Below, piece by piece: positions 12,132 to 29,705 of a stretch of 64,000 nucleotides of DNA. This DNA is from Deltaproteobacteria bacterium. Lineage in GTDB: Bacteria; JAGRBM01; JAHCIT01. Position numbers and translations under genes: made by a program. The notes under the pieces are model-generated. The model saw only the letters and a program-made list of their open reading frames with translations. It made no database searches and had not been told where the DNA came from. The stretch covers positions 1 to 64,000 of the forward strand of contig JAHCIT010000001.1 in assembly GCA_026129095.1 (NCBI GenBank). Direction: 5' to 3'. Positions within the stretch are counted from its first letter, which is position 1. Each line of letters opens with the position of its first letter.

Positions 12132-15100
12132 TCAGGCCTGTTTCCGGCGCCGCCGGATACGTCCTGCCGCTCCCGCGAGCGCCATCACAAGGCCAATCGC
12201 CGCGCCGGGATCCGTGGCACCGGCCGCGCAGCCGCCACCCTTCTTGGTGGGGTTTCCGGGCGTTCCGCCGCCACCACTGCCGCCGCTGCCGGCCGCCAGC
12301 ACGTTGATGAAGAACGGACCGATCGTGGTCGAGCTGGTGCCGTCGGAAACAATGTAGAAGATGTTGTTGTAGAGGCGGATATCCGTCGCTTCCGGCGTTC
12401 CGGACAGAACCCCTGTCGAGCTGTTCAGCGTGAGCCAGTCAGGCTTGTTCAGCATCGTGATCGTCAGGGTGTCGGTTTCCGGATCAGAGATGGTCGGACT
12501 GAAGGAGTACAGCTGGCCCACCACTGCCGCGGAGGCCGGTGTGCCCGTCACGACCGGCGGCTGGTTTATCTCGATATCAAACGAGGGGAGCGCCACCGGG
12601 GCGTTCACGCCGTCCGATATCCAGATGATGATGTTCGTGTACGGGCTGTTCGCCAGATGGGCGGGAACCGAGGACAGCGGTGAGCCGCCTAGCGATCCAT
12701 TGCCCGTCAGGTTGAACGTGCTGCCGTCGCAGGGAGCGCCGGTATCGCCCGCGAAGACTGCCCAAGCCGGCAGGTTCTCGATGCAGAACCGCAGGTCGTC
12801 GTAAGCCTCCGCATTCACGACCGTCGGCGTGAAGCTGTAGGTCCGGTCAAGACCGGCGCGGGGCGCCGGTACGCCGGAAATCACCGGGATCCCGTTCACG
12901 ATGATGGTCAGCGGGTTGACGTAGTAAACCGGATCGAAGTTGCCGTCGGTCACGCCCACCCTGATCTCGTAGGAACCGACATCGGCCGAAGTCAGGCCGC
13001 CCGGGGCGACCGATACCGTTCCGTCGGCCGAGTTGAACACCAGCCAGTCGGGCTGGCCCTGGATCACGAACAGCAGGTTGGCGTTCTCGCCCGGATCGTC
13101 ATCATTGGCCGTCCACTGGATGTTCGCCAGCTCGTCGGTCGTGAGGTCTTCGGCCACAACATAAGACGCCTGGACCATGCCGGTGAAGTTGATCGTCGGC
13201 CGCGAATTCACGATGATCGTGAAGGCCGGGAGCAGCACCGGCTGGTTTACGCCGTCGCTCACCCAGATCCGGATGTCCACGTACGAACCCTGGTCGCCGT
13301 CCACCGGGACCCCGCTGATATTGCCGCTCGTCGCCGGGAGGAAGGCCGGGTAGACGCCAGCGTCGCAGGTGGCCCAGTACGGACAGTTCTCGACGGCGAA
13401 CTCCAGTGCGTCGCCGTCCAGATCATAGACGTCGGGCGTGAATCCGGCCGGCGAGTGGTAATCGCTATTGATCGCCACCATCGTTGCGGGGCCGCCGGAG
13501 ATCACCGGCGGGCTGTTTACGACGATATCGAAGGCTGGCAGGGAGACCGGCGGGTTGATGCCGTCCGTCACCGAGATGACGATGTTCTGGTACGGGCTGT
13601 TGGTGCTGTCGGCACGGATCGGCGTGCCCCACAGGCGGCCCGTTGAAGGGTCGAAGAAGGCCCATGCCGGCTTGTTCGCAATGCTGTAGACAAGCGTGTC
13701 GTCATCCGGATCGGTCGCCACCGGATCAAACGAGTACAGGATGCCCGGATTGGCGACGGTACCCGGCGTGGCCGGGTCGAATACCGGCGGCAGGTTCGGC
13801 CGGATCACAACGACCTCGAAGGCCGCCGAGGCCACCGCCAAGTTCAGCGGATCCTTCACCGAGATCACGATTCCCGAATAGGTGCCGGCGTCGGCGATGC
13901 CGGGGGTTCCCGTCAGGACGCCGGTCGAGGGGTTGAAGCCTGCCCAGGGCGGCCGGTTCTGGATCGTGTAAACGAGCAGCGGTATGTCGCCGGCCTCGAA
14001 GGTGTCGGTTCCGCCCGGATTGCAGGTAAACAGGTTGCCGGCCAGCACGACGTCGTCGCCGCACGGCGTCGTAAAGCTCGGCGGGCCGTTCACGTACAGG
14101 CTCGGAATGACGAGCTGGACCGGATCGTTCACGCCATCGGTCACCTCGATGGTGACATTCAGGCTGGCCACGCCCGCATCCAGGATGCTGGGCGTTCCGC
14201 TGAGGACACCCGTGCTCGGGTCGATGCCCATCCAGCCCGGGTTGTTGATGACCGAGAAGGTAAGCACATCGCCCGCGTCAGGGTCGCTCGCGATCGGCGC
14301 GAACGTGTAGTCCACGCCTGTCGGTATGTTCGCCGGCGAGGTGCCGGAGATCGCCGGCGAACGGTTCACCAGTATGGAGAACGGAGCCAGCTCGACCGGT
14401 GCGAAGTTGCCATCGGTAACGGCGATGATGACGTTCTCGTACAGGCCGCCGTCGCTGGGCAGCGGACGTCCTGGCTGGTTGGTGAGCGCGCCGGTCGTCT
14501 GATTGAACTGGGCCCATGCGGGCAGGTTCTGGACCGACCAGATGAGGGTTTCGCCGTCCGCATCCACCGCCGAGACTGTCGTCGAGTAGGGAGTCAGCGG
14601 GCTCACCGGAACGACAGTCTGCGGGCTGCCAGGCTGAAATGACGGCACGGGCGGCGTGTTCACTATGATCGTGAACGGCCCGATCGACGAGGGGACATTC
14701 GGCAGCACCGCGTCGCGCACCCATATCCGGATGCCCGCATAGGCGCCGCGGTCCCCGGCCGCCGGGGTGCCGCTGATTTCACCGGTACCGGCGGCAAAGG
14801 CCGGGTAAACACCACCGTCGCAGGTGGCCCACGCCGGGCATTCCTCGATGGAGAACTGCATGGCATCGCCATTGGGATCGGTCGCCACCGGCGTGAAGCT
14901 GAAGGGCGAACCGACAGCCGCAAAGGCGGGCGGCACGCCGGAGATCACCGGCGGGCTGTTCACGACGATATCGAACGGCGCCAGCGAGGCCGACTGGAGC
15001 GTCATGGTATCCCGGATCGTGATGATGATGTTCGTATAGGGGCTGTTCGTCGCGTCAGCCACGATCGGCGTTCCGGACAGGGCTCCGGTCGCCGTATTGA

Positions 15101-18100
15101 ACGTCGCCCAGGCCGGCTTGTTGGTGATCTCGTAGGCGACGGGATTGTTCACCGGGCTCGATCCCGTCGGCGTGAACGAGTAGGCCTGACCGGGGACCGC
15201 GAAGGTCGCCGGCGTTCCGCTGATAACCGGATCGCCCGTCACGGTGATCGTGAAGGCCGGGAGCGCGGTCGTCTGGAATCCGTCCGTGACGGAGATCGTG
15301 ATATTCGTGTGGAAGCCCGCGTTGGCCGCCAGCGGCGTGCCGGTGAGCTGGCCCTGTGACGGACTGAACGACAGCCACGAGGGCCGGTTGGTGACCGAAT
15401 AGGTGAGCGTGTCGCCGTCCCCGTCGGTCGCCGTCACAACGAGCCCGGCGGGGTATTCGTACGGCGTTCCGACCGGCACCGAGAGATCCGGCGTGAGGCC
15501 GGCGGCCGTGAACGCCGGACGGCTGTTCACCCGGATATTGAAGTTGAGCGTGTTCGACACGAGGGGGATGGGGTTGCTGGTCCCGTCGTCCGCCTCGATC
15601 TGGATGGCGTAGACGCCGGCGTCGGCATCGCTCGGGGTGCCGGTGATGGCTCCCGTATTCGGGTTGCACAGCGCCCAGGTGGGGCAGGTGCCCAGGAAGT
15701 CGAACACGAGCGTGTCGCCGTTCGGGTCGGTTGCGACCGGCGTGAAGCTGAACGCCGTGTCCGGCACCGCACGCGGGACCGTGCCCGCCGACAGGACCGG
15801 CGCACCGTTCACCTTGATGCTGAACGGGCTGGTGGAAACCACCGGGAACACGTTGTCGGTCACCGAGATCACGATGCCGGTGTAGAGGCCCACGTCCGCA
15901 CCGGTCAGGTTGCCGTTCGAGGTGATCGAACCCGTGAGCTGGTCGAACGAGGCCCAGGCCGGGCGGTTCGTGATCGAGTACAGGACGACGCCGGGCGTGG
16001 GCGTGGGCGTGAAGGTATAGGGCGAGCCCACGTTCACCACATCGGGGTTGGCGGCCGGGGCATCCACCGTGGGCGGCGTGTGCACGATGATGGTGAACAT
16101 CGGGTACGAGACGTACGTCGCGCCGCCGTCGTCGCTCACGCTCACCTCGACGAACTGGTAGGTGCCGCCGTCAGCCAGGACCGGGGTGCCGGTCATGTTG
16201 CCGGTGCCGGGCGCGCAGGCCGGGAAGTCGCCGCCGCCGAAGGTCAGCCACGCGGGGCGGTTCCGGATGCGCCAGCAGAAGGGTGCGGTGTCATCGAAGT
16301 CGAACACCGACGGGGTGTATCCACCCGCGCCGCCGTAGTTGCTTCCGACGGAAACCTGGGTCGGCGGAACCGGTGTGCCCAGCACGGGGAGCGAGTTCAC
16401 GTCGATGCTGAATACGGGGAGCGCCACCGGCGGATTCAGGCCGTCGCTCACCTCGATCACGATGCCGCCATACACGGCCGAATCGAGCTGGCTCGGCGTT
16501 CCGCTGAGGCGGCCCGTCGTGGAGTCGAACAGCGCCCAGGGGGGCTGGTTCGTGATCGCGAAGGTGAGCACGTCGTTTTCAGGGTCGGTCGTCACGGGCT
16601 GGAAGACGTAAGGCTGGTTGGGCTGCGCACGCAGGGCAGGCGTTCCGGAGATCACCGGCGGCGCATTGACCGTGATCGTGAAGGCCGGGAGCGAAACCGC
16701 CGGGTTGTATGGGTCCGCAACGCTGATGACGATGCCGGTGTAGATGCCGCTGTCGGCAGGCGTGGGCGTTCCCGACAGATAACCCGTCGCCGCATTGAAG
16801 GTCATCCAGATCGGCCGGTTCACGATCGAGTAGGCGAGGAAATCGGCTTCCGGATCGGTCGCCAGCGGCAGCGCCACCGGGAACTCGAAGAAGTCGCCCG
16901 CGATGAGCTGCGTATCAGCGGGCGTGTCGTTGAACGCGGGCGGTCCGTTGACCTCGATCGTGTAGCTCACCGGAGCGGTTGTGACCGTTCCGTCAGACAA
17001 TTCGATGTCGAAGGTGTACGAGCCCACGTCCGGAAGGCCCGGCTGGCCGCTGATCGTCCCGGTGGACGGGTTGCAAACCGCCCAGGACGGACACCCGGGG
17101 TTCGAGAAGATGAAGGTGAACGTCTCCGGATTGGCCGGGGGCTGGTGGTTCGGATCGGAGAACGTCGGCGTGAAGGAGTAGTTCACACCCGGCACGGCGA
17201 TGGGCGGCGTCGTCGCCGTCAGGACCGGCGATCCGTTCACCTTGATCGTGAACGGCGGGAGCGAGGCCTCGCCGCCATTGCTGTCGTAAACGGTGATGAC
17301 GATGTTCTCGTACCGGCCGATGTCGGCAACCGACGTGGAGCCCGACAGGGCGCCCGTCACGGTGTTGAACACGGCCCAGGGGGGCTGGTTGTCGATCCGG
17401 TACAGGAGGCCCTGCGGCACACCATCCGGATCGGAAGCGACCGGGGTAAACGTCGGGTAGGCGTTGCCCGCCTGAACGACCGTGGCCGGAATACCGGAGA
17501 TGACCGGCGGCGTGTTGACGACGATGAGGAACCGGAGTTCCACCGGCGGCGAGAACCCGTCGTCCGCATAAAGGATGAACAGGTAGCTGCCGGTATCGGC
17601 CGTCGTGGGCGTGCCGTCGATCAGCACTTCGTACGGGTCGCCGGGGTCCACCGGCGGCGTGACGACCGGGGCGTTCAGCCAGCCCGACTGGTCATCCACG
17701 GTGATGACAAGGGCGTCGCCATCCAGGTCCACGGCGTTGGCAATGAACGTGTACAGGGCGCCCGGCGGAGCCTGGGTGACCGAGGTGGTCGAGATCACCG
17801 GCGGCGCATTGACGCGGATACTGAAGATGAGCGGCGCGGATGCGACGATACCGTCGTCCGCGGTGATCTCGATCCCGGCGTACAGCCCCGAATCGTCCAC
17901 GATGGGAGATCCGGACAGCCTGCCGGTAGCCGTGTCGAAATCGGCCCAGGCGGGGCGGTTCACGATCGAGAAGGTGAGCACGTCTCCCGAGGAATCGACC
18001 GCCGTGGGAGTGAACTCGAATGGCTCGTTCGGACGGATAACTGCGGCGGGCGAACCAGACAGTATCGGCGGCGTGTTCACGCGGATCGAGAACGGATCCA

Positions 18101-21100
18101 GACAGACCGGCAGACTGTTGAAGTCGGTCACGCAGATAACGATATCGTTGTAATTGCCGCCATCTGCAAGGGCAGGAGTGCCGCTCAGGTTCCCGGTGAT
18201 TGTGTCGAACACGGCCCAGGAGGGCTTGTTCGTGATCGAGAACCGGAGCGTGTCGAGCGCCGGGGACTCGGGATCGACCGCGACCGGCGTGAATCCGCCG
18301 CCACCGTTGTACGGATTACCCGCCGACACCAGCGTGTCGGGCGTGCCGCTGATCGTCGGCGGCGTATTCACGACAATGGTGAAGGGGTCGAGGTAGACCG
18401 TCTGGATGCCGTCGGTGACGCCGATCCGGATGCCCACGTAGGTGCCGCGATCGGCCACCAGCGGCGTGCCGGACAGTTCGCCCGTTACCGGGTTGATGCT
18501 CAGCCACGACGGGATATCCGTACCGACGAAGGTCAGCGTGTCGAGCGGATCAATGTCCCATCCGAAGAACGTGTACGAATAGGGAACGGCGATATTGGCG
18601 ATGCCCGGCGGATCACCCTCGATATAGGGCAGCGTGTTCACGATGATGGAGAACGGCCCCAGCACATACGGCGCGTTGACGCCATCGGAAACCGAAATGG
18701 TGATGTTGCTTTCGACGCCATAGTCCACCGCGCCCGGCACGCCATACAGGCGGCCGGTCGTGTAGTCGAAGAAGGCCCAGCTCGGCTTGTTCACGATGTC
18801 ATACGTGAAGGGCCGGTTCGGATTCTGCGGATGGGCGTTCGTATCCGGCAGGAACGAGTATTCCTCGTTCGTGTTGGCGATGGCCGGCGGGATGCCGCTC
18901 AGGGTTGGCGGCGTGCGGGTCAGGTCCACCGACAGCGCCGCGCTGATCTGGAACTGGTTCACGCCGTCCGTCACGGTCAGGATGTACCCGCCCGTTCCAA
19001 AGTGCCCGCCGCCCGGTTGACAGGTGATCGTATTGATCCCGGCGTTCAGCGTCACCATCTGCGGAAGCGAAACATTCTGGAAATCATGCGAGTAGCTCTG
19101 GCCGGTCACCGTCACGCCGTCGCCCTCAAGATCGTTAATGATATATGTGACGACCGTCGGCACATACCGGGGACAGGCGAGATCCGGCCACGGCGATGTG
19201 AAGGTGAGCTGGGGCGTTCCGTTCACGTATACGGAGAAGGGCGCGGATAGCGTCGTGTTGTAACCATCGGTCACCTGAATCTGGATGTTGCTATAGGTGT
19301 TACCGGCTTCCGAGGCGGGCGCATTGGACGCCACCAGGAAGTTGATGAACCCGCCGGACGTTTGCTGCACCAGCGGGGTCATGAACGTCGGAGCATTCAC
19401 CAGCGACATCGTGAGCTGGCTGCGGGCATTATCCGGGTCATCGATGGTAACCGGGTATTGCCTTGGTTGCCCGTCGGTCGGAACCTGTGCCGGAGCAGCA
19501 AACGATACCGCCGGAGGAGCGTTCACCACCAGCCGGATCGGCGTGATTGGAACGACGAAGTTTCCGTCCGTCACGTTGATCTCGATCAGGTAGAGTCCGG
19601 TTTCGTCGATAAAGGCGTTCAGGACCGGAGTTCCGGAGATTTCGCCCGTCTCGGAGTTGATCGCGAGCCAGGTCACCGTGTCGTCCGAGAACAGGAGATC
19701 GGCCACTGGAGCGACGAGTGGATCCGTATAGGACGACCCGCCCCGAACTCCCGTGATCTCGCGGACCTGGAGCGAGAAAGCGAGGATGTCACCGTCCACA
19801 TCGCCCGACGCCGGCGTGAAGCTGAACAGCACGTTCGGCGGGATAATCGGCACCGGAGCGCCGCTGATCGTCGGCGGCGAATTCACGATGATGAAGAACG
19901 GCGGGAGCGTCACGTTGTAGTTGCCGTCGGTGACGCCGATGACGATTCCTTCGTACTTGCCTTCGGGTGTTGCACCACCGCCGTCGTCCGTAATCTCGCC
20001 CGTGGCCGGGTTGAACAGCGCCCAGGACGGCAGGTTCTGCACGGTGAACACCAGCACATCGGCCGGATCCAGATCGAAGGCGGTGGGGGCGAACGAGTAG
20101 GGATCGCCCGTTGCCACCTGCGTGACGGGTGCCGGCGCTTCCAGGATCGGGGGCATGTTCACCCGGAGCGTGAATGGCGCCAGATTCACCGGACCTGCGA
20201 CTCCGTCGGAGACCGAAATCTCGATCAGGTAGTCGCCGCGATCCGCAGCGATCGGCGTGCCGTAAAGCTGGCCGGTCGCCGTGTCGAAATTCGCCCATTC
20301 CGGACGGTCCACGATGGCGAAACTGTAGGCCGACGAATCGCCACCCGTCGCCGCCGGCTGGAAGCTGTAGAGCTGCCCCGGAACCGCCAGAAGGTCGGGG
20401 GTGCCGCTGATCTGGAGCGGTGCACGAACCGTCACAGTGAAGCTGGAAGTACAGACCGGCGCGCCAAACCCGTCGGAAACGCAGATCGCGAAGGTCGAGC
20501 TGGTGCCGCCAAATCCGGCTGGATCGCCGGAGAGGAGTCCCGTCGCCGGTACGAATGCCGCCCAGGCCGGCAGGGTGCCCGTGAAGGAATAGGTCAGGAC
20601 ATCCAGTTCCGGGTCGGTGGCATCGTTGGCCGGGAATAACACCGTCGCACCGGCGGCATCAGACAGGATGACGTTCACCGGGCTTGCGGTCGCAAACGAC
20701 GGGGCGCCGTTCACCTCGATGTCGAACGGGGCAAGCGACACCCAGTTCGCGCCGCCATCATCGCTGACGCGGATTTCGACGTTGTTGTAGGTGCCGGTAT
20801 CGGCCTGTGTCGGATTGCCGGTCAGCGCGCCGGTATTGACATCAAACGCGGCCCACGCCGGCAGGTTCAGGACGCTGAATACCAGCGCGTCGCCATTCGG
20901 ATCGCTGGCAGTCGGCGTGAAGCTGTAGGCCGAGCCCGCACGGACGAACCCCGCCGGGGTGCCGCCAATAACGGGATCGCCGTCGATCTTGACGGTGAAC
21001 GCACCAAGCGCAACGGCCGGATTGATACCATCCGAAACGCTGATGATGATGTTGGTGAAGTTGCCGATCTGGGCCGCCGGAGCCGGACCGCTGGTGAGCG

Positions 21101-24100
21101 CACCGGTCGTCGTGTCGAAGTTGGTCCATGAGGGCTGGTTCGCGATGGACCAGATCAGCGTGTCGCCATCCGGGTCGGTAGCGTTCACTGCCACCGCGAG
21201 GTTGTTGCCCGGATCAACCGAATAGACGGTATTCGGCTGGAGCGTGATGTCCGGCGGGTTGTTCAGGCTGACGGTGATGATGACCGTCGCGATGTCTGTT
21301 CCGTCGTCCAGGTCGAACTCGACGTTCCAGTCGGGACCAATATCCCAGTCAGCAAGCGTTGGCGTGCCGGAAATGGTGCCGGTCAGCATGTTGCAGACGG
21401 CCCACGGCGGGCAGTTGCGGAGATCATCAATGACGACCGTGTCCCCGTTCGGGTCACTGATCGCCGGCGTGAAGGTGAACAGGAACCCCGGCCGGGCCAG
21501 CGACGGCTGATTCGTGATGGTCGCCAGGCCGTTCACGATGATGGAGAAGGACGCCATCGTCACCGGGGCGTTGATGCCGTCGGTCACTGTGATCGTCACG
21601 TTCAGGTAGTTCCCGATTTCGGCTGCAGTTACCGGGGCGCTGGTGAGCGCGCCCGTCGTACCATTGAAACTGGACCAGGGCGGCTGGTTGGTGATGGTCC
21701 AGGTCAGGGTATCGCCATCCGTGTCGTTGGCCGTGGCGGTGAAGTTCAATGAATCGCCCACGGAGAGCGCAATCACGCCCGGCGACGGGACCGTGAACAC
21801 CGGCGGATCGTTCACCAGGATATCGAAAGCGGGCAGGTCGACGGTCGTCACGCCGCCGTCGTCGCTCACGCTGATGATGATGTTGCTATAGGTTCCGGCA
21901 TCGGCCAGCGAGGGTATGCCACGCAGTTCGCCGGTTGCCGCGTTGAAGGTCGCCCAGGGCGGCTGGTTCTGGATCGAGAACGTGAGCGTATCGTTGTTAA
22001 CATCACTCGCCGTCGGCGTGAACGAATAGAGCGAGCCCGGAGTCACCAGCGTGGGCGGGTTGCCGGAGATCACCGGCAGGCCGTTCACCCTGATGTCCAG
22101 GGTTTTCGAAACCGATCCGCCATTGCCGTCGTTCGCCGTCACGACGACGCCGTTGTAGTTCCCGGCCACATTCGCAGTCGCTGTTCCCTGCGCGTAGATG
22201 AGCCCCAGCGACGAATCGAAGCTGGCCCAGGCCGGCAGATTCGCCACCGTGTAGACGAGCGGGTCTCCGTCGTCGTCCAGCGCGTAAGGCTCGGCAAGGT
22301 CAACTACGAAAGATTCGTAAGGATCGCCCGCCTGGATCGCCGTGATGTCCGTGTAGAAGGGGTTAAAATACGGCGCCGAGTTGACGATGATGGTGAACGG
22401 ATTGAGGTAGACCGTGGGCGTGATGCCGTCCGAAATGGAAACCTGGATGGCGTAGGATCCGTTATCGGCACCACCGGCGTCCGGAGTGCCATCAATGGCG
22501 AACAGGTAAACCCCGCCCGGAGTCGGATTACCGGGGTAGGGATCCAGCATCGCCCATCCCGGCGTCGTCACCTGGACGTTCAGTGCATCGCCATCCGCAT
22601 CGACTGCCGAAATAATGATCCATACCGGATCTCCCGGCGTGACCATGACCATGCCCGATACCAGCGGATGGGAGTCGGACAGTATATCCCCCGTCGGCTG
22701 CGAATTGACCGTCAATGTGAACACGAGCGGAGCCGAGGTCAGGCCGCCGCTGTCGGTGGCGGTGATCTCGATGCCCGCGTAGGTGCCGCCGTCATCCACG
22801 ATGGGCGTTCCCGACAGGGTGCCGGTCGTCTCGTCGAAGAACGCCCATTCAGGTTTGTTCGTGATGGCGAAGGTAAGCGCATCGCCGTTGGGATCGTTCG
22901 CCACGGGAGTGAAGGTGAACGGCTGGTTCGGCCGCAGTTCGGTCACCGGCGTTCCGGTCAGCACCGGCGAGCCGTTCACGTGGATCGAGAACGGCGCCAG
23001 CGACACGGGCGCGAAGTTGCTGTCGGTCACCGAGATGATGATGTTGCCGTAAGTGCCGGCATCGCCCTCGCCCGGTGTTCCGGTCAGCGCGCCGGTGAAC
23101 TCGTTGAAATCGGCCCAGGGCGGCTTGTTCTGGACCGAATAGAGGAGCGGTGTCAGGCCCGGTGCGTTCGTGTAGGCCGACACCCGGTAGACATCATCCG
23201 CCGTGAAGACGGCGCCGCCCGAGAGCGCCGGGTTCAGCGTGAGGTCCGTCGCCGCGATGCCGCCCGCGTCGATGACGCTGGAGGCGGACGGATCAACGCT
23301 CAGGTTCTCCACCAGGTCGCCGGCCGCGAGCACCGGCGAGAGCGCGGTGAAATCAATGCCGGTGTCTTCCAGCGTCGTGGCCGAGCCGCCCGTGGCAAGG
23401 CCGGAGAAGATGCCGTCCGGATCGTTCACGACCGGGACAAACAGCGGATACGGATCGCCCGCGTTGACCGAGGCGGCTGGTGCCAGCGGCGCGGTGATGA
23501 CCGGCGGCTGGTTCACGATGATCGTGAACGGCGGGAGCGAGACGGTTTCCGGGCCCGCGCTGTCCTGGACCGACAGCACGATGTCAACAAAGCTGCCGCC
23601 CGACGTCGGCGCGATGTTGGTGACCGTTCCGGTGACGGGGTTCAGCGATGCCCACGGCGGCAGGTAGTTCACCGTCCAGGCGAGCACGTCGCCCTCCGGA
23701 TCGAAGGCGGTCACGGTGCTGGAGTAGCCGCCGGCGAGGACGCCCTGCAGCACCGAGATCACCGGCATGCCCGCCGGGAACGATGGCACCGGCAGGCTGT
23801 TCACGCGGATATTGAACGCGCCAAGGCTGACCGGCGTGTTCGTTCCGTCGGTCACCGTGATGTTGATGCCGTTGTAGTCGCCCGCGTCGATCTGGAGCGG
23901 CGTGCCCGAGATGTTGCCGTTGCCGGGATCGAACAGGGCCCACGGCGGCAGGTTCACGACCGAGTAGGTGAGATCGTCAGCCTCCGGGTCGGTCACCGCC
24001 GGCGTGAAGGAGTACAGCACACCGGGATAGGCGCGGGTTTCCGGCGTGCCGCTGATTGCCGGCGGGCCATTGACCGAGATGCTGAACGGCGCGAGCGAGA

Positions 24101-27100
24101 CGGGCGCATAGACGTTGTCGGTCACTGAAATGATGATGTTGGTGTAGGTGCCCGCGTCGGCGGCCGTGGCTGTACCGGTGATGGAGCCCGTCACGGTGTT
24201 GAAGGTCATCCACGGCGGCAGGTTCTGCACGGAGAACGAGAGCGGGTCGAGATCCGGATCGTTCGTCACCGGCGTGAAGGTGTAAAGCACACCCACTCCG
24301 GCGGTGGGATTCGGGATGCCGGAAATCGTGGGCGGACTGTTCACGGTGACCGTGAAAGCCGCCAGCGACACGGCCGGCCAGTACGGATCCTGGACCGTGA
24401 TGATGACGTTCGCATAGGAGCCGGTCACCGTCACCGGGTTGCTGCACAGTTCCCCCGCGCCGCAGGGTGCGCCGTCGAAGGCCGCCCAGGCTGGTAGGTT
24501 GCTGATCGAATACACCACCGGGTCGCCGTCCGGGTCGAGCACGTCGGGCGTGAACGAGTACGGCTGGCCCGCGCCGATGAACAGCGTGGGGGCGCCGGAG
24601 ATCGAAGGCGGCGAGTTGACGCGGATCGAGAAGGGCGCAAGCGAGACGGGCGAGTTATTCCCGTCGCTCACCGAAATGACGATACCGGCGTAGTTGCCCG
24701 AATCGGCCTGCGTCGGGTTGCCGGTGAGCGCGCCGGTGGCCGTGTCGAACGTGGCCCATGCCGGACGGTTCGTGATGGAGAACACCAGGACATCGGCATC
24801 CTGGTCGACGGCCGTGGGCCTGAACTCGTACGCATCGCCCGGCCGCACGAGCGTCGCGGGGGTGCCCGTCAGTGACGGCCGGTTGTTCTGGCCGATATAG
24901 AGGGCGCCGTCGCTCAGGCGCTGGTAGAGCTTGCGGGCCGCCGGCATCGTGATGTTGATGCCGCGGCTCACCTTGCCGGCCTGCACCGCCACCACGCCGG
25001 GGCGGGTAACATCGTTGTGGATGCTCCGGCTTGCGCCGGTGGTCACTCCGGCGGGGCACTCCGCGTCGGAGGCGATCCGGTAGTAGTCGCCGGCGGCGAA
25101 CGACTGGCCGCCCGACAGGGCGCCCGAGAAGCTGATGACGTTCTGGGTGATTCCGGCAACGGCGATCGTCGAATCGCCCAGCACGGCCGTCGAACCGACC
25201 TTCTCGACCAGCATGCCGTCGGCAATTCCAGTCGTGGTGAAGTCGCGGCTCGTGTCGATGAGGGTCAGCGTCGAGCCTCCCGTGGCAATGCCGGTGATGC
25301 CGTCACAGGGCAGTTCCACGCGGTCCGGACTGCCAAGGTCAACCGTATCGACCCGCTCGAAAACGCCGCCCGGGCTGCCGCTGTACAGGTCGCCCGAATC
25401 AAGGCTGACCGCGCTGGAGTATCCGCGTCCGCTCACCTTCGCGAGATACGAACGGACCACCTGCGAGACGTCCCCGACACTGCCGTCGAGGTCCATCGCA
25501 AACACCAGGTATTTGGCCGTGCCCTTGCCGGGATTCACCGGGAGGCCCGAGATGAGGTAGCAGCCCGAACCGCCCGTCGAGGCAATCGTCGGATCCGGGT
25601 CGGAAAACTCATGTACGCCATCCGTACGGGTGGGGAACTCAAGATCGATTTCCAGCGGGTCGATGGCGAGCGTGCGGATCGCATGGCAGCGGGCCGCCAC
25701 AGCGGGATCGGCCGGGTGACCGAAGTTCGTGCCGGATACCGCTTCCTTGTATTCGCGGCAGTAACGGTGAACGGCGCTGTCCGGGTCCACGGGCGCGCCG
25801 GTCAGCGAGCCCACCACGTCACGCTCGGCGAGCGGCTGGTATACCGAGTTCTCGTCGGAGTTGCGGCCGTCGATTTCGACCGCAACGATGCTGAGGCCGT
25901 GCACGGGATCGCCGTTGGCGTCCCGCACGCAACCGGCGATGGCGGCGGTTCCGCCGATGACTCCGTCCACGATCTCGTAGCTGTCACCATTGATGAACTG
26001 GTTGACCGTGCCGCCAACCAGCCCGTTCACGATGATCACGCTGCCGGACACGTATTCAACCGTGCCCCACGACCTGTCGGTCAGGTTGTGGACCGCATCG
26101 CCAGGCGCGACGCCGGCAAGGCCGAAGTCTTTTGACAGATCAAACAGGAACCGGGTGTTGGGGAACGAGGTGATGAACGGGGGAGTGTCGTCAATCACCG
26201 CATAGCGCTGCCCGCCCTGCCAGACGTTCGATGATCCGCCAGTGAGCGGTCCCGCCAGAGTCAGCCGGTCGCTGGCAATCACCGCGATGACGCCCGAGGA
26301 ACCATCGGTGATATTGTACAGGCGGTCGCCGATGTTCAGCCCGGCAATGGAGGTGAAGTCCGACTGCGAATCGGCGATCATGACGGTCGTGCTCGCGCCA
26401 CCCGGGAAATCGCCGGTAATTTCATACTGGTCGCCCGGCTGGAAGTTGATGACCGTCCCGCTGCAGCGGACATAGGACGTCCCAACCGCTGTCACGGTGC
26501 AGGAGAGCCCCTGCGTGACATTCCGGAGAGTGGCGCCCATCGGCACCCCCGACGCCGAGAAACTGGCCGCCGCATCCCACAGTTCGTTGGAGACGCCGCT
26601 CGTGGTGGTGATGTTGGGGCCAACCAAACGGAACTGGTTCAGCCGGTTCCAGACGTTCGATGTGCCTCCGGAAAGACCGGCGACCATCTGCACCGTGTTC
26701 CCGTATGCCGGAGCCGAAAGAACCGTGCCCGAGGAACCATCGGTCACGTTCTGGACGATATCCCCCGGACTGACGCCCACCGCGAAGAAGTTGACCGTGG
26801 TTGAGGTCAGGTCGCCGGTCGCACCGGGCCCGGAGATGTTGTTCCCGATAATCCGGTAGCTGTCGCCTGCCAGCCAGCCCGACGGCAGGTTCGTGTGGGT
26901 GATGGACGAAAAGGGCGTCAGCGGAGCAACCGTCACTGTCGCCTGCTCACCGGTGGTTTCGTTGATCACCAGGTCGCCCGCAGCAACGGAGCCGAACGGA
27001 TTCAGAGGATCCACGAGCGAGGTCGCCGTGCTGGCAGCGTCCGCCAGTCCACGCATGTGGGGCAGATGAACCCCCGTCGACACGCCATCGGCCGTGCCGG

Positions 27101-28730
27101 CAATGATGCCGAGCGTCCGGCCCGTGATGCCGTTCCGGGCAGAGTTGGTGTTGCGCAACGTTCCGTAGATGCGGAAGCTGTCGCCCGCCACGAAGATGTC
27201 GGCCGTCAGCGTGAGCTGCGTTGCGGCGACCGCCGTAACGTCGGTCTGGGCGCCGGTGGTCTCGTTCACCACCACGTCGCCAACCCGGACGCCAACCCGC
27301 GTGAAATCCCACCCGAACACGTTGTATTCGAGTGCACTCGCCACCGTCGCCGTTGCATTCCCCTGCAGGTCGTTCAGGACCGTACCGGGATACATCATCA
27401 GCATGGCGGCCTCGTCGTCGGCTTCCAGTATCCGGATCAGGCTGTTCTGGTCGCGGGGAAAATCCTCCCGGATCGGGAACATGGAGGGCTGCATGAACTC
27501 GTTCTCGGCCGCGAAGATGGGCGAGTGGTCAAGCCCCATCGCCAGACCCATCGCCTGCGTCAGCAGTCCTTCCATTCCGGCCGAGAAACCCGAATCGATG
27601 GTGGAAAGCGCCGTCGCCGTGACCAGGATATCCGCGTCCCGGATCACGCCATGCGCCATGCCGCGGGCGCGGCCGGAAATGTTCCGGACGCCGTCCCTGT
27701 CCACCGCGGGGAGGACCACCATCATCACTCCGGACGGAAGGTTCAGCTCCTGGCCGATGGATCCCGTGGAATCGTCGTACACGATCTGGCTGATTCCGTC
27801 GGCCGGGTTCAGCGCGAAGCCGAGATCCACGTCGTGATGGTCGATGTCGTAAATACTGGTGCCACCCGCGCCGCCGATCACAAAGTAGTCGTCGGTTCCC
27901 CGCAGCGGGAGCCGTTCCCAGTAAAGGTCGGAGGGGTCAAACACCGTGATGTTGGGGGTCACCGCCGGATTGAAGTCGAACTGGCTGGCAGAACTGATCT
28001 GGCCGGCGAAATCGCCGTCGCACGGATGCATGTCCGCATGGGTGAACATGAAACCGACACGGGTGGGGCCGGCTGTCCCCAAGCTGCCGACACCGTTCGG
28101 GCTGTCGCCGCTCCGCTGGGTCTGGACTTCGTTCCAGGTGCTCATCGCCACCAGCGCGGCGCGAATCGGCCCGACAATGCTCGTTTCGGTCGTGGACCGG
28201 AGGATGATCCGGTACCCGCTGGACGAATTCAGCGGATCAATCGCCTGCTCGGTGATCGACAGTTCGGGGCAGCGGAACCCCGCGCTCTGGTTCGAGTCGA
28301 TCACGTAGGTCACCACCGGGCCATCCACCTGCGACTGCCGCAGGTAGGAGCCACCGGGCGTGAGGACCGGAGCGGTCCGGCCATCGCGCCTCATGTAGGC
28401 GACCGGGTTGTGGAACTGGCTGGCAGGATCGTCGGGATCGAGCGGGAAGCCTTTGCCGTAAACCATCTCGAGGCCCTGGCCACCGGTGGCATTGCTGGCA
28501 GTCACCGGATAGATGCCCGGAGCCGACTGCCCCCGCACCGTGTCGGCGAGCCGGTCCCACCGCATCATGAGGATGCCGTCGGTATCCGGGTCGGCGTCGC
28601 AGCGGGTCGAGGCCGGATCGCAGAAGAATGCCTTCTGAACCCAGCCGGACGCCGGATCGGGGCGCGAGCCGACCGATACCAGCGCGACAGCCGCCGCCAG
28701 TGCAAGATACGCAGATATACGCTTCATCAT
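12132..28730 (-). CDS. Giant secreted protein, 5,532 residues: pseudo-matrixin domain, novel repeat modules, 43 Ig-like (He_PIG) repeats, sorting tail
   Basis: A single uninterrupted gene. After a signal peptide (about 1-24), residues 100-450 look like a matrixin (PVVTYVIDSNQSAG, ALVAMSTWNEV), but the zinc motif is QAMGLAMGLDHS (392-403), lacking the first two histidines and the glutamate. Residues 470-940 hold six copies of a module with the pattern GDxVxNxTdG...GDxYRI; two more copies occur at about 1165-1220 and inside Ig repeat 6. Residues 1284-5480 contain 43 repeats of about 97 residues with the pattern YSFTP-DPNGD-LTFSI-NxPxWA-F-TGxLSGTP, the putative-Ig (He_PIG) type. A Gly-rich linker, C5501, a hydrophobic stretch and RIRRRR end the protein, like MYXO-CTERM tails. 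AGGAAGGA precedes the ATG. A 219-residue secreted protein is encoded 48 bp upstream. A surface adhesin or filament role is inferred. Confidence 0.93.
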   Translation of the reverse strand: MMKRISAYLALAAAVALVSVGSRPDPASGWVQKAFFCDPASTRCDADPDTDGILMMRWDRLADTVRGQSAPGIYPVTASNATGGQGLEMVYGKGFPLDPDDPASQFHNPVAYMRRDGRTAPVLTPGGSYLRQSQVDGPVVTYVIDSNQSAGFRCPELSITEQAIDPLNSSSGYRIILRSTTETSIVGPIRAALVAMSTWNEVQTQRSGDSPNGVGSLGTAGPTRVGFMFTHADMHPCDGDFAGQISSASQFDFNPAVTPNITVFDPSDLYWERLPLRGTDDYFVIGGAGGTSIYDIDHHDVDLGFALNPADGISQIVYDDSTGSIGQELNLPSGVMMVVLPAVDRDGVRNISGRARGMAHGVIRDADILVTATALSTIDSGFSAGMEGLLTQAMGLAMGLDHSPIFAAENEFMQPSMFPIREDFPRDQNSLIRILEADDEAAMLMMYPGTVLNDLQGNATATVASALEYNVFGWDFTRVGVRVGDVVVNETTGAQTDVTAVAATQLTLTADIFVAGDSFRIYGTLRNTNSARNGITGRTLGIIAGTADGVSTGVHLPHMRGLADAASTATSLVDPLNPFGSVAAGDLVINETTGEQATVTVAPLTPFSSITHTNLPSGWLAGDSYRIIGNNISGPGATGDLTSTTVNFFAVGVSPGDIVQNVTDGSSGTVLSAPAYGNTVQMVAGLSGGTSNVWNRLNQFRLVGPNITTTSGVSNELWDAAASFSASGVPMGATLRNVTQGLSCTVTAVGTSYVRCSGTVINFQPGDQYEITGDFPGGASTTVMIADSQSDFTSIAGLNIGDRLYNITDGSSGVIAVIASDRLTLAGPLTGGSSNVWQGGQRYAVIDDTPPFITSFPNTRFLFDLSKDFGLAGVAPGDAVHNLTDRSWGTVEYVSGSVIIVNGLVGGTVNQFINGDSYEIVDGVIGGTAAIAGCVRDANGDPVHGLSIVAVEIDGRNSDENSVYQPLAERDVVGSLTGAPVDPDSAVHRYCREYKEAVSGTNFGHPADPAVAARCHAIRTLAIDPLEIDLEFPTRTDGVHEFSDPDPTIASTGGSGCYLISGLPVNPGKGTAKYLVFAMDLDGSVGDVSQVVRSYLAKVSGRGYSSAVSLDSGDLYSGSPGGVFERVDTVDLGSPDRVELPCDGITGIATGGSTLTLIDTSRDFTTTGIADGMLVEKVGSTAVLGDSTIAVAGITQNVISFSGALSGGQSFAAGDYYRIASDAECPAGVTTGASRSIHNDVTRPGVVAVQAGKVSRGINITMPAARKLYQRLSDGALYIGQNNRPSLTGTPATLVRPGDAYEFRPTAVDQDADVLVFSITNRPAWATFDTATGALTGNPTQADSGNYAGIVISVSDGNNSPVSLAPFSIRVNSPPSISGAPTLFIGAGQPYSFTPDVLDPDGDPVVYSISNLPAWAAFDGAPCGAGELCSNPVTVTGSYANVIITVQDPYWPAVSLAAFTVTVNSPPTISGIPNPTAGVGVLYTFTPVTNDPDLDPLSFSVQNLPPWMTFNTVTGSITGTATAADAGTYTNIIISVTDNVYAPVSLAPFSISVNGPPAISGTPETRAYPGVLYSFTPAVTDPEADDLTYSVVNLPPWALFDPGNGNISGTPLQIDAGDYNGINITVTDGTNTPVSLGAFNIRVNSLPVPSFPAGMPVISVLQGVLAGGYSSTVTAFDPEGDVLAWTVNYLPPWASLNPVTGTVTNIAPTSGGSFVDIVLSVQDSAGPETVSLPPFTIIVNQPPVITAPLAPAASVNAGDPYPLFVPVVNDPDGIFSGLATGGSATTLEDTGIDFTALSPVLAAGDLVENLSVDPSASSVIDAGGIAATDLTLNPALSGGAVFTADDVYRVSAYTNAPGLTPLLYSVQNKPPWADFNEFTGALTGTPGEGDAGTYGNIIISVTDSNFAPVSLAPFSIHVNGSPVLTGTPVTELRPNQPFTFTPVANDPNGDALTFAITNKPEWAFFDETTGTLSGTPIVDDGGTYAGIEITATDSGGLTSAPLVFTLTVNSQPTGDILSDSHPLVSGMVMVTPGDPVWIIISAVDADGDALNVQVTTPGWAMLDPYPGNPTPGGVYLFAIDGTPDAGGADNGSYAIQVSISDGITPTVYLNPFTIIVNSAPYFNPFYTDITAIQAGDPYESFVVDLAEPYALDDDGDPLVYTVANLPAWASFDSSLGLIYAQGTATANVAGNYNGVVVTANDGNGGSVSKTLDIRVNGLPVISGNPPTLVTPGSLYSFTPTASDVNNDTLTFSIQNQPPWATFNAATGELRGIPSLADAGTYSNIIISVSDDGGVTTVDLPAFDILVNDPPVFTVPSPGVIALSVGDSLNFTATANDTDGDTLTWTITNQPPWSSFNGTTGALTSAPVTAAEIGNYLNVTITVTDGINAPVTMASFSIIVNGLATITNQPSLARPGFLFTFTPAISDPNGDTVVIDDLRNCPPWAVCNMLTGTISGTPTLADWDIGPDWNVEFDLDDGTDIATVIITVSLNNPPDITLQPNTVYSVDPGNNLAVAVNATDPDGDTLIWSIANQPSWTNFDTTTGALTSGPAPAAQIGNFTNIIISVSDGINPAVALGAFTVKIDGDPVIGGTPAGFVRAGSAYSFTPTASDPNGDALVFSVLNLPAWAAFDVNTGALTGNPTQADTGTYNNVEIRVSDDGGANWVSLAPFDIEVNGAPSFATASPVNVILSDAAGATVLFPANDATDPELDVLTYSFTGTLPAWAAFVPATGLLSGDPAGFGGTSSTFAICVSDGFGAPVCTSSFTVTVRAPLQISGTPDLLAVPGQLYSFQPAATGGDSSAYSFAIVDRPEWANFDTATGQLYGTPIAADRGDYLIEISVSDGVAGPVNLAPFTLRVNMPPILEAPAPVTQVATGDPYSFAPTAFDLDPADVLVFTVQNLPSWALFNPATGEITDDGGGATPEGKYEGIVIGVTDGNYNVTLPPFFIIVNSPPTISGAPVPIIPPNVLFSFTPASGDVDGDILAFSLQVREITGVRGGSSYTDPLVAPVADLLFSDDTVTWLAINSETGEISGTPVLNAFIDETGLYLIEINVTDGNFVVPITPIRLVVNAPPAVSFAAPAQVPTDGQPRQYPVTIDDPDNARSQLTMSLVNAPTFMTPLVQQTSGGFINFLVASNAPASEAGNTYSNIQIQVTDGYNTTLSAPFSVYVNGTPQLTFTSPWPDLACPRYVPTVVTYIINDLEGDGVTVTGQSYSHDFQNVSLPQMVTLNAGINTITCQPGGGHFGTGGYILTVTDGVNQFQISAALSVDLTRTPPTLSGIPPAIANTNEEYSFLPDTNAHPQNPNRPFTYDIVNKPSWAFFDYTTGRLYGVPGAVDYGVESNITISVSDGVNAPYVLGPFSIIVNTLPYIEGDPPGIANIAVPYSYTFFGWDIDPLDTLTFVGTDIPSWLSINPVTGELSGTPLVADRGTYVGIRIGVTDGIQTVYLDPFTIVVNTPPTISGTPDTLVSAGNPYNGGGGFTPVAVDPESPALDTLRFSITNKPSWAVFDTITGNLSGTPALADGGNYNDIVICVTDFNSLPVCLDPFSIRVNTPPILSGSPAAVIRPNEPFEFTPTAVDSSGDVLTFSIVNRPAWADFDTATGRLSGSPIVDDSGLYAGIEITADDGIVASAPLIFSIRVNAPPVISTTSVTQAPPGALYTFIANAVDLDGDALVITVDDQSGWLNAPVVTPPVDPGDPYEVLIDGTPTTADTGSYLFILYADDGFSPPVELRFLIVVNTPPVISGIPATVVQAGNAYPTFTPVASDPDGVPQGLLYRIDNQPPWAVFNTVTGALSGSTSVADIGRYENIVITVYDSNGGEASLPPFTIKVNGSPVLTATTPPIAVPGVNYSFTPTFSDPNHQPPANPETFTFIFSNPGCPSWAVCNPSTGTISGQPGLPDVGSYTFDIELSDGTVTTAPVSYTIEVNGPPAFNDTPADTQLIAGDFFEFPVALPLATDPEADFLAYSIVNRPIWMTFNAATGYLSGTPTPADSGIYTGIVISVADPYNPAVSLPAFTITVNAPPVISGTPALRAQPNQPYVFQPVTTDPENDVLTFAITNQPPWALFDSTTGRLSGTPSQLDSAVYGGIVIEVSDGLNPPVALPVFSIDVNSLPVLGTPVPPTQVSVGSNYGGAGGYTPSVFDFDDTAPFCWRIRNRPAWLTFGGGDFPACAPGTGNMTGTPVLADGGTYQFVEVSVSDDGGATYVSYPMFTIIVHTPPTVDAPAANPDVVNVGSPYTFTPTPTPGVVLYSITNRPAWASFDQLTGSITSNGNLTGADVGLYTGIVISVTDNVFPVVSTSPFSIKVNGAPVLSAGTVPRAVPDTAFSFTPVATDPNGDTLVFDFLGTCPTWALCNPNTGAITGTPSDADAGVYAIQIEADDGTSNPIPLVSNTLNFNIRVNSRPAFTAAGLTPDLSVPVGTPYEYPAGLVVTATDGDGDTLTYSVTNRPSWLSFSPSQGQLTGTPLAANAGFHTNITISVTDGFQTTALPAFTITVTGDPVISGTPATFAVPGQAYSFTPTGSSPVNNPVAYEITNKPAWATFNTATGALSGTPIVADATNSPYTNIIITIRDTMTLQSASLAPFDIVVNSPPVISGVPPAFAAVGSPFSFTPVATDPNGDAMQFSIEECPAWATCDGGVYPAFAAGTGEISGTPAAGDRGAYAGIRIWVRDAVLPNVPSSIGPFTIIVNTPPVPSFQPGSPQTVVPVSPLTPYSTTVSAVDADGETLIWSVQNLPAWAQFNQTTGALTNQPGRPLPSDGGLYENVIIAVTDGNFAPVELAPFSILVNRSPAISGTSPANIPTGVDYTFAPIASDPDAGDVLTFSVINNPGWMGIDPSTGVLSGTPSILDAGVASLNVTIEVTDGVNDPVQLVIPSLYVNGPPSFTTPCGDDVVLAGNLFTCNPGGTDTFEAGDIPLLVYTIQNRPPWAGFNPSTGVLTGTPGIADAGTYSGIVISVKDPLNLAVASAAFEVVVIRPNLPPVFDPATPGTVANPGILYSFDPVATDPDDDTLVYSIANKPAWAFFDPSTGRLWGTPIRADSTNSPYQNIVISVTDGINPPVSLPAFDIVVNSPPVISGGPATMVAINSDYHSPAGFTPDVYDLDGDALEFAVENCPYWATCDAGVYPAFLPATSGNISGVPVDGDQGSYVDIRIWVSDGVNQPVLLPAFTIIVNSRPTINFTGMVQASYVVAEDLTTDELANIQWTANDDDPGENANLLFVIQGQPDWLVFNSADGTVSVAPGGLTSADVGSYEIRVGVTDGNFDPVYYVNPLTIIVNGIPVISGVPAPRAGLDRTYSFTPTVVNAEAYDDLRFCIENLPAWAVFAGDTGAPCDGSTFNLTGNGSLGGSPLSSVPAHLANSPYTNIIIWISDGVNAPVALPSFDIEINQPPVVTGTPASAAVVGQLYSFSPTISDPETDTLTITMLNKPDWLTLNSSTGVLSGTPEATDIRLYNNIFYIVSDGTSSTTIGPFFINVLAAGSGGSGGGGTPGNPTKKGGGCAAGATDPGAAIGLVMALAGAAGRIRRRRKQA
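12135..12290 (-). other. C-terminal sorting-like tail of the giant protein (Gly linker, Cys, hydrophobic helix, Arg cluster)
   Basis: The last 52 residues are a Gly/Ser/Pro linker, KKGGGCAAG with a lone cysteine, a hydrophobic stretch AIGLVMALAGAAG and then RIRRRRKQA. This order (Cys, membrane segment, Arg cluster at the extreme end) is that of MYXO-CTERM and similar bacterial C-terminal sorting signals, which lead to surface anchoring. The exact MYXO-CTERM consensus is not fully matched. Confidence 0.6.
12291..24881 (-). repeat. 43 tandem Ig-like (He_PIG-type) repeats within the giant gene
   Basis: Counting conserved junctions of the type VNxPPxIsGtP gives 43 units averaging about 293 bp (97 residues). 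The units are diverged from each other at DNA level but share the order YxFTPxaxDpdGD, LxFSIxNxPxWAxFdxxTGxLsGTP, DxGxYxxIxIxVsDG and FxIxVN. Some are longer because of insertions: repeat 6 contains a foreign module, and repeats 18, 35, 40 and 42 have extra loops. Confidence 0.85.
25970..27305 (-). repeat. Six tandem copies of a second repeat module within the giant gene
   Basis: Six units of about 45-75 residues share the pattern DF-G-GDxVxNxTdGssGtV, then LxLxgxLxGG, then GDxYRIxg. Clear examples are VGDVVVNETTGAQTDV to AGDSFRIYG, and PGDIVQNVTDGSSGTV to NQFRLVG. Two more copies lie at about 25074-25230 and 23170-23350. I do not recognise this module as a named domain. Confidence 0.7.
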
Positions 28731-28778: not shown

Positions 28779-29438
28779 TCACTTCCTTTTCGGTTTCCCG
28801 GTATCCGTTTCCGGTTTGGCGGCTGCGGCCGCCGGCCTGGCAGCACCGGATTTCCCGGTGGCTGCGGTAATAAGACTGATCACTTCATCCAGCGTCAGGC
28901 CGGAGATATGCGGCTTGTCCTGCTGGCGAACCTGCCTGACCTCCTGGTCGTAGACCCGGACAATACCGGGGCTGGCGATGACGGTTTCCGGCTCGCGCGA
29001 CGAGGGGCGCGTCACTTCCATCACGCCCTGCTTCCAGCCGACGGTGGTGCGGAACCCGTTCTCGAACTCCGGGGTCACAAACAGCAGGTATTTCTGTCCC
29101 TGCACGAACCGCGGAGCGCCCGGCACGGTGACATTCATCTCGCCGCGCTGGCCGCCCAGCACACGGATGGACAGATCCTCGAGGGGCGGCTCGCCCAGAA
29201 TGTTCGTCTGCACATCGAAACGGCTGACCGTGAACACCCGTGCCCCGGTCGCATCCAGATGAGACGACTGGCCGACACAGGTTGCCACCACCACATGCTC
29301 GGATTCGTCGATCAGATCCCGGAGCGTGCGTTTTTCAACCAGAGCGCGAACAGGAAGCGCCGTGACGGCAGCCACAGCTACCGTCAAAAGACACAGGAAC
29401 CGGAAGACCCTCCGGTCCTTCCATGTAAGAAGATTCAT
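28779..29438 (-). CDS. Secreted 219-residue partner of the giant protein
   Basis: The N-terminus has a charged NLLTWKDRR, then a hydrophobic export segment (about 11-30) ending ALPVRALVEK. The mature part has LRDLIDESEHVVVATC, TVSRFDVQTNILGE, SIRVLGGQRGEMNVTVPGAP and GQKYLLFVTPE, a beta-rich pattern I associate with small exported proteins found beside matrixin-type proteins in deltaproteobacteria. The C-terminus (about 185-219) is Ala/Lys-rich and probably disordered. I chose the ATG at 29438 because it gives a proper signal peptide; 13 upstream in-frame residues are unlikely. It precedes the giant gene by 48 bp on the same strand and is almost certainly co-transcribed, so the two may form one exported system. 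Confidence 0.75.
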   Translation of the reverse strand: MNLLTWKDRRVFRFLCLLTVAVAAVTALPVRALVEKRTLRDLIDESEHVVVATCVGQSSHLDATGARVFTVSRFDVQTNILGEPPLEDLSIRVLGGQRGEMNVTVPGAPRFVQGQKYLLFVTPEFENGFRTTVGWKQGVMEVTRPSSREPETVIASPGIVRVYDQEVRQVRQQDKPHISGLTLDEVISLITAATGKSGAARPAAAAAKPETDTGKPKRK

Positions 29439-29705
29439 GGCCGTTTCATGATAAGGGTGCTGGCCAGAGGCCGTCAAGCATTCTCCCGTGTGTTTACGCG
29501 GACTTACCCCGAAAAAGTGTGGTTTATATTACAGTTCCAGAACGGATTACCGGTGCATTTATGTAAGCATTTGTACACCAGGGACAGAAACTGCCCGGAT
29601 ACCGGAATCATTAACGCCGGAAACGCCGTTTGCGGCTGTTCATGAAAGCCGCCCACCTCGCCTTTTTTCGAAACAGGTGTAACAACTACCGCAACCCGGA
29701 CACCT
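29439..29705. other. Divergent intergenic region between the giant-protein operon and the Hsp70 gene
   Basis: These 267 bases are AT-richer than their surroundings around 29510-29610 and must hold both promoters. I see two imperfect direct copies, GCATTTATGTA and GCATTTGTACA (from about 29566), but no pair of boxes I would call confidently. No open reading frame is convincing. Confidence 0.4.

Follow-up and report, generated by a model that had tools for sequence, protein, structure and literature searches.

A 5,532-residue bacterial Ig-repeat protein with a putative pseudo-matrixin head and a guest module shared with phage structural proteins

One gene takes up 16.6 kb of the 64,000-nucleotide stretch of deltaproteobacterial DNA analyzed here (the window; positions 1 to 64,000 of contig JAHCIT010000001.1, assembly GCA_026129095.1). 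The source phylum of this bacterium is barely sampled. The locus raises the question of what a protein of such size is built from, whether its parts occur elsewhere, and what it may do for the cell.

The giant gene and its Ig array

The gene (12132..28730, minus strand) is an uninterrupted frame that runs from 28730 to 12132 and encodes 5,532 amino acids from an ATG start. A Shine-Dalgarno sequence (CAGGAAGGA), rated good or strong, lies 5' of the start (CAGGAAGGAACTAGCC-ATG), and the translation opens with a signal peptide-like segment, MMKRISAYLALAAAVALVSVG (residues 1-29; 28644..28730, minus strand). Third-position GC of the frame is 0.84, and its coding score is the highest within the window. 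A 1,056-amino-acid frame on the plus strand (16080..19250), antisense to the giant gene, was attributed to GC-rich codon usage and given no weight. Collapse or chimerism of the assembly through the repeats is unlikely, because the repeats are diverged, exact DNA repeats are 25 bp at longest, and the gene is located 12 kb inside a 618,770-bp contig. Tandem Repeats Finder returned just two short two-copy arrays and no long tandem array, and an assembly artefact was rejected as unlikely from these observations.

Most of the protein is an array of He_PIG-type Ig domains that spans residues 1284-5477 (12300..24881, minus strand), recognized with Pfam and with an HMM made from the protein's own repeats. 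Pfam He_PIG (PF05345) gave 31 individual matches along the frame (E<=1e-3, most above 24 bits), including multiple ones over the curated cut-off, and reached E 6.7e-104 when one third of the protein was scored. The own-repeat HMM found 44 stretches at E<1e-3 over residues 1284-5477. Two pairs of these are the split halves of single domains and one more is weak, which gives 42-43 Ig domains of about 97 residues each. Several of the domains keep paired cysteines. Pairwise identity among full-length units averages 39%, with a maximum of 62%, and neighboring copies are no closer (38%) than distant ones (39%). A recent expansion of the repeats was rejected, since adjacent copies are no more similar than distant ones. 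An earlier, preliminary description had reported a single gene of 5,532 residues at 12132-28730, with 43 Ig repeats of about 97 residues behind a non-Ig head of roughly 1,280 residues, and had regarded the diverged array as old rather than recent. The one open frame, its coordinates and the repeat count all held, the head measured 1,283 residues, and the age of the array agrees with the mean identity and the lack of excess similarity between neighbors.

The preliminary description had also proposed that the same architecture be sought in related genomes. No orthologue of the whole architecture was found in 60 sampled genomes searched with the head, in GTDB contigs searched by peptide pattern, or in order-mate G001, the other genome of the phylum examined. 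G001 is without the head, the guest module described below and the upstream gene. It does encode a 2,558-amino-acid He_PIG protein, broken by a contig end, that has a different head and no guest modules (L039:3-7676, contig C178). The second giant of the source genome (L011/L012; G000 contig C17, 8233-21102, minus strand) is a 4,290-amino-acid Rhs/YD-repeat-like protein that also bears He_PIG domains and FG-GAP-like repeats, and a protein of 1,845 amino acids (L013:5257-10791) has at least one strong He_PIG domain.

The head, the upstream gene and the sorting tail

Residues of about 130-452 (27375..28343, minus strand) form a predicted matrixin (M10 zincin-like) domain, identified through alignments and a match to an intact secreted matrixin of the distant genome G049 (E 1.4e-5), which in turn matches matrix metalloproteinase-16 (MMP-16) in the PDB (E 3e-5). 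When six sequences are aligned, the THEvGHllGfDHS of matrixins reads TQAMGLAMGLDHS in the giant, and the zinc motif HExxHxxGxxH is replaced by QAMGLAMGLDH (residues 392-402; 27525..27557, minus strand). The catalytic Glu and the first two zinc His are gone (H-E-H to Q-A-L). Retained are the Thr, both Gly and the third His, as well as the ADI strand before the motif and the LxxDD region after it. With the catalytic Glu and two of the three zinc ligands lost, the sequence rules out ordinary zincin catalysis. We read the head as a matrixin-derived pseudo-protease and not as a protease; the preliminary description had proposed a pseudo-protease, and the alignments give it a family. The predicted link to matrixins draws on a single distant relative, on the region of the motif and on the neighborhood of the gene; BLASTP of the head directly against the active matrixin paralogue of its own genome returned nothing.

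Farther along the head, residues 927-1283 (24882..25952, minus strand) make up a linker region, interrupted by one guest module, that resembles a carboxypeptidase-regulatory-like domain. The match to Pfam CarboxypepD_reg is weak (E 0.21), and a domain similar to the linker comes after the intact matrixins of L038 and L110.

A small secreted protein is encoded 48 bp ahead of the giant gene (28779..29477, minus strand), and it matched no Pfam or NCBIfam family. Homologues were found in 31 of 386 sampled genomes, and they adjoin intact matrixins at 19 of the 30 loci checked, with a frame containing HExxHxxGxxH within 1.5 kb of the homologue; the motif occurred twice in 463 kb of control loci. These results suggest that the giant is a degenerate and greatly extended member of a two-gene secreted matrixin cassette. 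The association also makes a partner of secreted bacterial matrixins directly testable. Some cassette matrixins bear a regulatory-like or PKD/Ig-like domain and a Cys-TM-Arg tail (L105, L108, L110), a tail with which the active cousins L105 and L108 also end. The source genome itself encodes an active matrixin on contig C2 (L017), with an intact HELGHLIGFGH and a GGGGGGCSAG...RYRR tail. There, a 633-codon frame (L017:259-2160, G000) runs from the matrixin and its MYXO-CTERM-like tail into a homologue of the upstream protein without a stop; it is either a fused polyprotein or two genes sharing one frame.

The retention of the upstream partner gene beside a dead protease would fit a head that still works. 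It could be a metalloprotease of an atypical kind, or it could serve matrixins as a decoy or an inhibitor-binding domain, and the small upstream protein would then be its regulator. NCBIfam has another family of inactivated, MYXO-CTERM-anchored metalloproteases, which indicates that dead copies are kept repeatedly. We nevertheless consider a working head of this kind unlikely, given the missing catalytic Glu and the two missing zinc His.

At the other end of the protein, a C-terminal tail consists of GGGCAAGATDPG, with Cys at residue 5501, a hydrophobic helix and RIRRRRKQA (12135..12248, minus strand). It was recognized by the MYXO-CTERM model TIGR03901 at 25.3 bits against a cut-off of 20, a score that falls to 17.8 bits when the tail is scored within a longer piece. 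The sorting tail that had been noticed from the letters is accordingly of the MYXO-CTERM type. In M. xanthus, a CPBP myxosortase processes such tails, and type II secretion brings the proteins to the cell surface (PMC11980579). The source genome encodes a candidate sortase, the CPBP protein L048, which comes closest to the myxosortase group and scores under the curated cut-offs of all named myxosortase families (74.3 bits against 100 for Mrt_core; 68.6 bits against 75 for MrtJ). The type II secretin GspD, the component of the secretion system that was scored, is encoded elsewhere in the genome (487 bits, cut-off 351).

The guest module in the giant protein, other bacteria and phages

A genome-wide search with a profile of a beta-rich module of about 70 residues (threshold E<1e-3) found eight copies, all within the giant gene, at E 6e-19 to 6e-29; a wider profile, A5, retrieved them again. 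Copies 1 to 6 (27162..27362, E 2.5e-19; 26844..27050, E 6e-19; 26619..26837, E 1.6e-24; 26412..26606, E 3.6e-23; 26190..26399, E 6.5e-26; 25965..26180, E 6.4e-29; all minus strand) form a tandem row that separates the dead protease from the linker domain, and none of them is nested. Copy 7 (25071..25295, minus strand; E 1.5e-22) is nested in the linker domain, and copy 8 (23178..23402, minus strand; E 9.2e-22 and alignment) is nested in Ig domain 6. That domain (residues 1742-1919; 22974..23507, minus strand) is split exactly between its DPDG loop and its PLLYSV strand, and uninterrupted Ig neighbors align on both sides of the module without loss. The preliminary description had noted a second repeat family, which these eight copies bear out; their sharing with phage virion proteins and the nesting of two of them had gone unnoticed.

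AlphaFold, run with 48 module sequences, predicted a five-stranded beta-rich fold for copy 6 (pLDDT 89.6, pTM 0.78). Foldseek with this model found nothing at E<1e-3, the PDB included. The best PDB matches were small beta-barrels of ATP synthases and pyruvate kinase (TM 0.5-0.6), and the best BFVD matches were phage proteins (TM about 0.7). Matches to fatty-acid-binding proteins (E 0.011-0.023) were considered chance. A single-sequence fold of the nested Ig domain with its module was unusable (pLDDT 31).

Identity among the giant's module copies is 21-43%. Such strong divergence, along with the dead active site and the absence of the giant from G001, would also fit a decaying gene, in which an inactivated protease is followed by a neutral, drifting repeat tail and no surface structure is expressed. 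We regard decay as very improbable, because the 16.6-kb frame holds no stop and has strong codon bias, paired cysteines are retained in several Ig domains, and the sorting tail is intact.

Outside the giant, 84,980 species genomes were scanned for the module by pattern and tblastn. Eisenbacteria carry it inside a right-handed beta-helix protein, and Gammaproteobacteria and Nitrospirae carry it inside multiheme c-type cytochromes. Gammaproteobacteria also carry tandem copies inside pilin-like proteins, a label read from N-terminal sequences that have no Pfam match. The module is rare in cellular genomes: a sample of 386, the source genome included, gave one other strong match. Three of the cytochromes (L042, L043, L044) are very large multiheme proteins with a LamG-like domain, of a type common to Gammaproteobacteria and Nitrospirae, and the module interrupts them in similar places.

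In a scan of viral contigs, the module turned up in structural proteins of 24 IMG/VR contigs. These host proteins include tail (nozzle) proteins, a head-tail adaptor and a further protein of the tail. In the T7-gp12-like nozzle of L054, the module forms an insertion of 77 residues when compared with tail tubular protein B of Rhizobium phage RHEph21. With tblastn, homologues of L054 were found in 2,531 phage records; the best among the matches listed align in two segments that together span about 90% of it. The module thus lies inside an otherwise complete host domain both in this nozzle and in Ig domain 6 of the giant. Isolate phages and plasmids gave no match at E<0.01 in tblastn with two different module queries, so the phage evidence rests on the IMG/VR contigs.

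The iterated module profile has 59 members. None of 48 members defines a family in Pfam, and two PHROGs families pick up just one member each; as far as Pfam, PHROGs and the literature searched show, the module family is undescribed. We read the module from these alignments as a promiscuous guest domain of unrelated extracytoplasmic and phage structural proteins. The giant exposes, in this way, a domain family that is common to virions and bacterial surfaces and for which neither Pfam nor PHROGs has a dedicated model.

How the module came to occupy these hosts can be read in two ways. It may be a guest domain that spreads horizontally, passing in frame between phage virion proteins and extracellular proteins of unrelated bacteria, probably carried by phages, and entering loops in such a way that the host fold stays intact; we hold this to be an evenly balanced proposition. 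Alternatively, in a reading that we rate at somewhat under even, the module is not mobile; it has long belonged to phage virion and surface proteins, and its nested positions go back to ancient insertions that were inherited vertically. Near-identical phage relatives (L126-L128) keep the module at the same place, as would be consistent with vertical inheritance, a 90%-identical host relative also has it, and no pair with a filled and an empty site was seen among close relatives; the copies in the giant are old as well. Against this stands the identity between modules in unrelated host proteins, which for the bacterial beta-helix and cytochrome copies reaches 61-70%. In addition, L055 and L067, both phrog_376 nozzles, carry modules at three different alignment positions, and the nozzle of L054 provides a fourth insertion site. 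In a tree of limited resolution, the bacterial cytochrome and beta-helix copies fall among those of phages, and half of the copies in the giant group with the pilin-like ones. A module that is accommodated by a cytochrome, a phage nozzle, a beta-helix protein and an Ig fold offers domain insertion as a natural experiment.

Proposed role and comparison with known systems

We consider it probable that the giant is a cell-surface stalk or adhesin that arose from a secreted matrixin cassette, is sorted by its MYXO-CTERM tail, and carries a dead, binding head and guest modules. A surface-binding stalk is suggested by the architecture, by the loss of catalysis and by the extracytoplasmic or virion setting of all recognized module hosts. 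The precursor would be exported via Sec, and the MYXO-CTERM helix would retain it in the inner membrane. The CPBP myxosortase would cut it at or behind Cys5501, after lipidation as proposed for M. xanthus, type II secretion would carry it outside, and the lipidated C-terminus would then anchor it. At about 4 nm per domain, the 43 Ig domains would extend over roughly 170-190 nm and may hold the head away from the cell. The matrixin fold of the head most likely binds rather than cuts, since it can no longer cleave, and the guest modules would most likely add surface-binding capacity, for example glycan-binding. Should the module recognize a common surface ligand, phage attachment and bacterial adhesion would be connected through it.

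Known systems share parts of this design. The preliminary description had called the architecture one without a known name, and it is less orphaned than that, as NCBIfam holds two families of MYXO-CTERM-anchored metalloproteases, NF041905 (active) and NF041938 (dead), which like the giant join a secreted zincin to a MYXO-CTERM tail. The giant itself matches neither model, NF041938 not even at E 10. The two models cover about 280-325 residues and, unlike the giant, are without an Ig array or guest modules, and the motif has been lost differently (QAMGL in the giant, RSIGE in the NF041938 family name). Cassette matrixins of other genomes do match the NF041905 and NF041938 models, below their cut-offs.

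The tail, with its Cys, transmembrane helix and Arg-rich end, is like those of the M. xanthus MYXO-CTERM proteins processed by MrtX, and a CPBP protease and a type II secretin are likewise present in the giant's genome, although its candidate sortase falls below the curated cut-offs (PMC11980579). Its size alone is not surprising, because proteins of more than 5,000 amino acids are known in tens of thousands (PMC11573180). He_PIG/Ig giant adhesins and other huge surface proteins also run to thousands of residues with Ig repeats, a signal peptide and an anchor, whereas the pseudo-matrixin head and the nested guest modules are peculiar to the giant (PMC11573180). The giant is a variation on known things, an Ig stalk and a MYXO-CTERM pseudo-protease. 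Giant Ig proteins themselves are common, and what this one appears to illustrate is a secreted protease cassette turned into a dead-headed surface stalk.

Promiscuous Ig-like domains occur in tailed-phage structural proteins. Hoc is a case of an Ig-like phage structural protein (PMC10385173). Like these domains, the guest module is a small beta domain, optional in unrelated virion proteins. Unlike them, it belongs to another sequence family with no Pfam model, is usually nested in its host protein, and is common to bacterial cytochromes, pilin-like proteins and giant Ig proteins.
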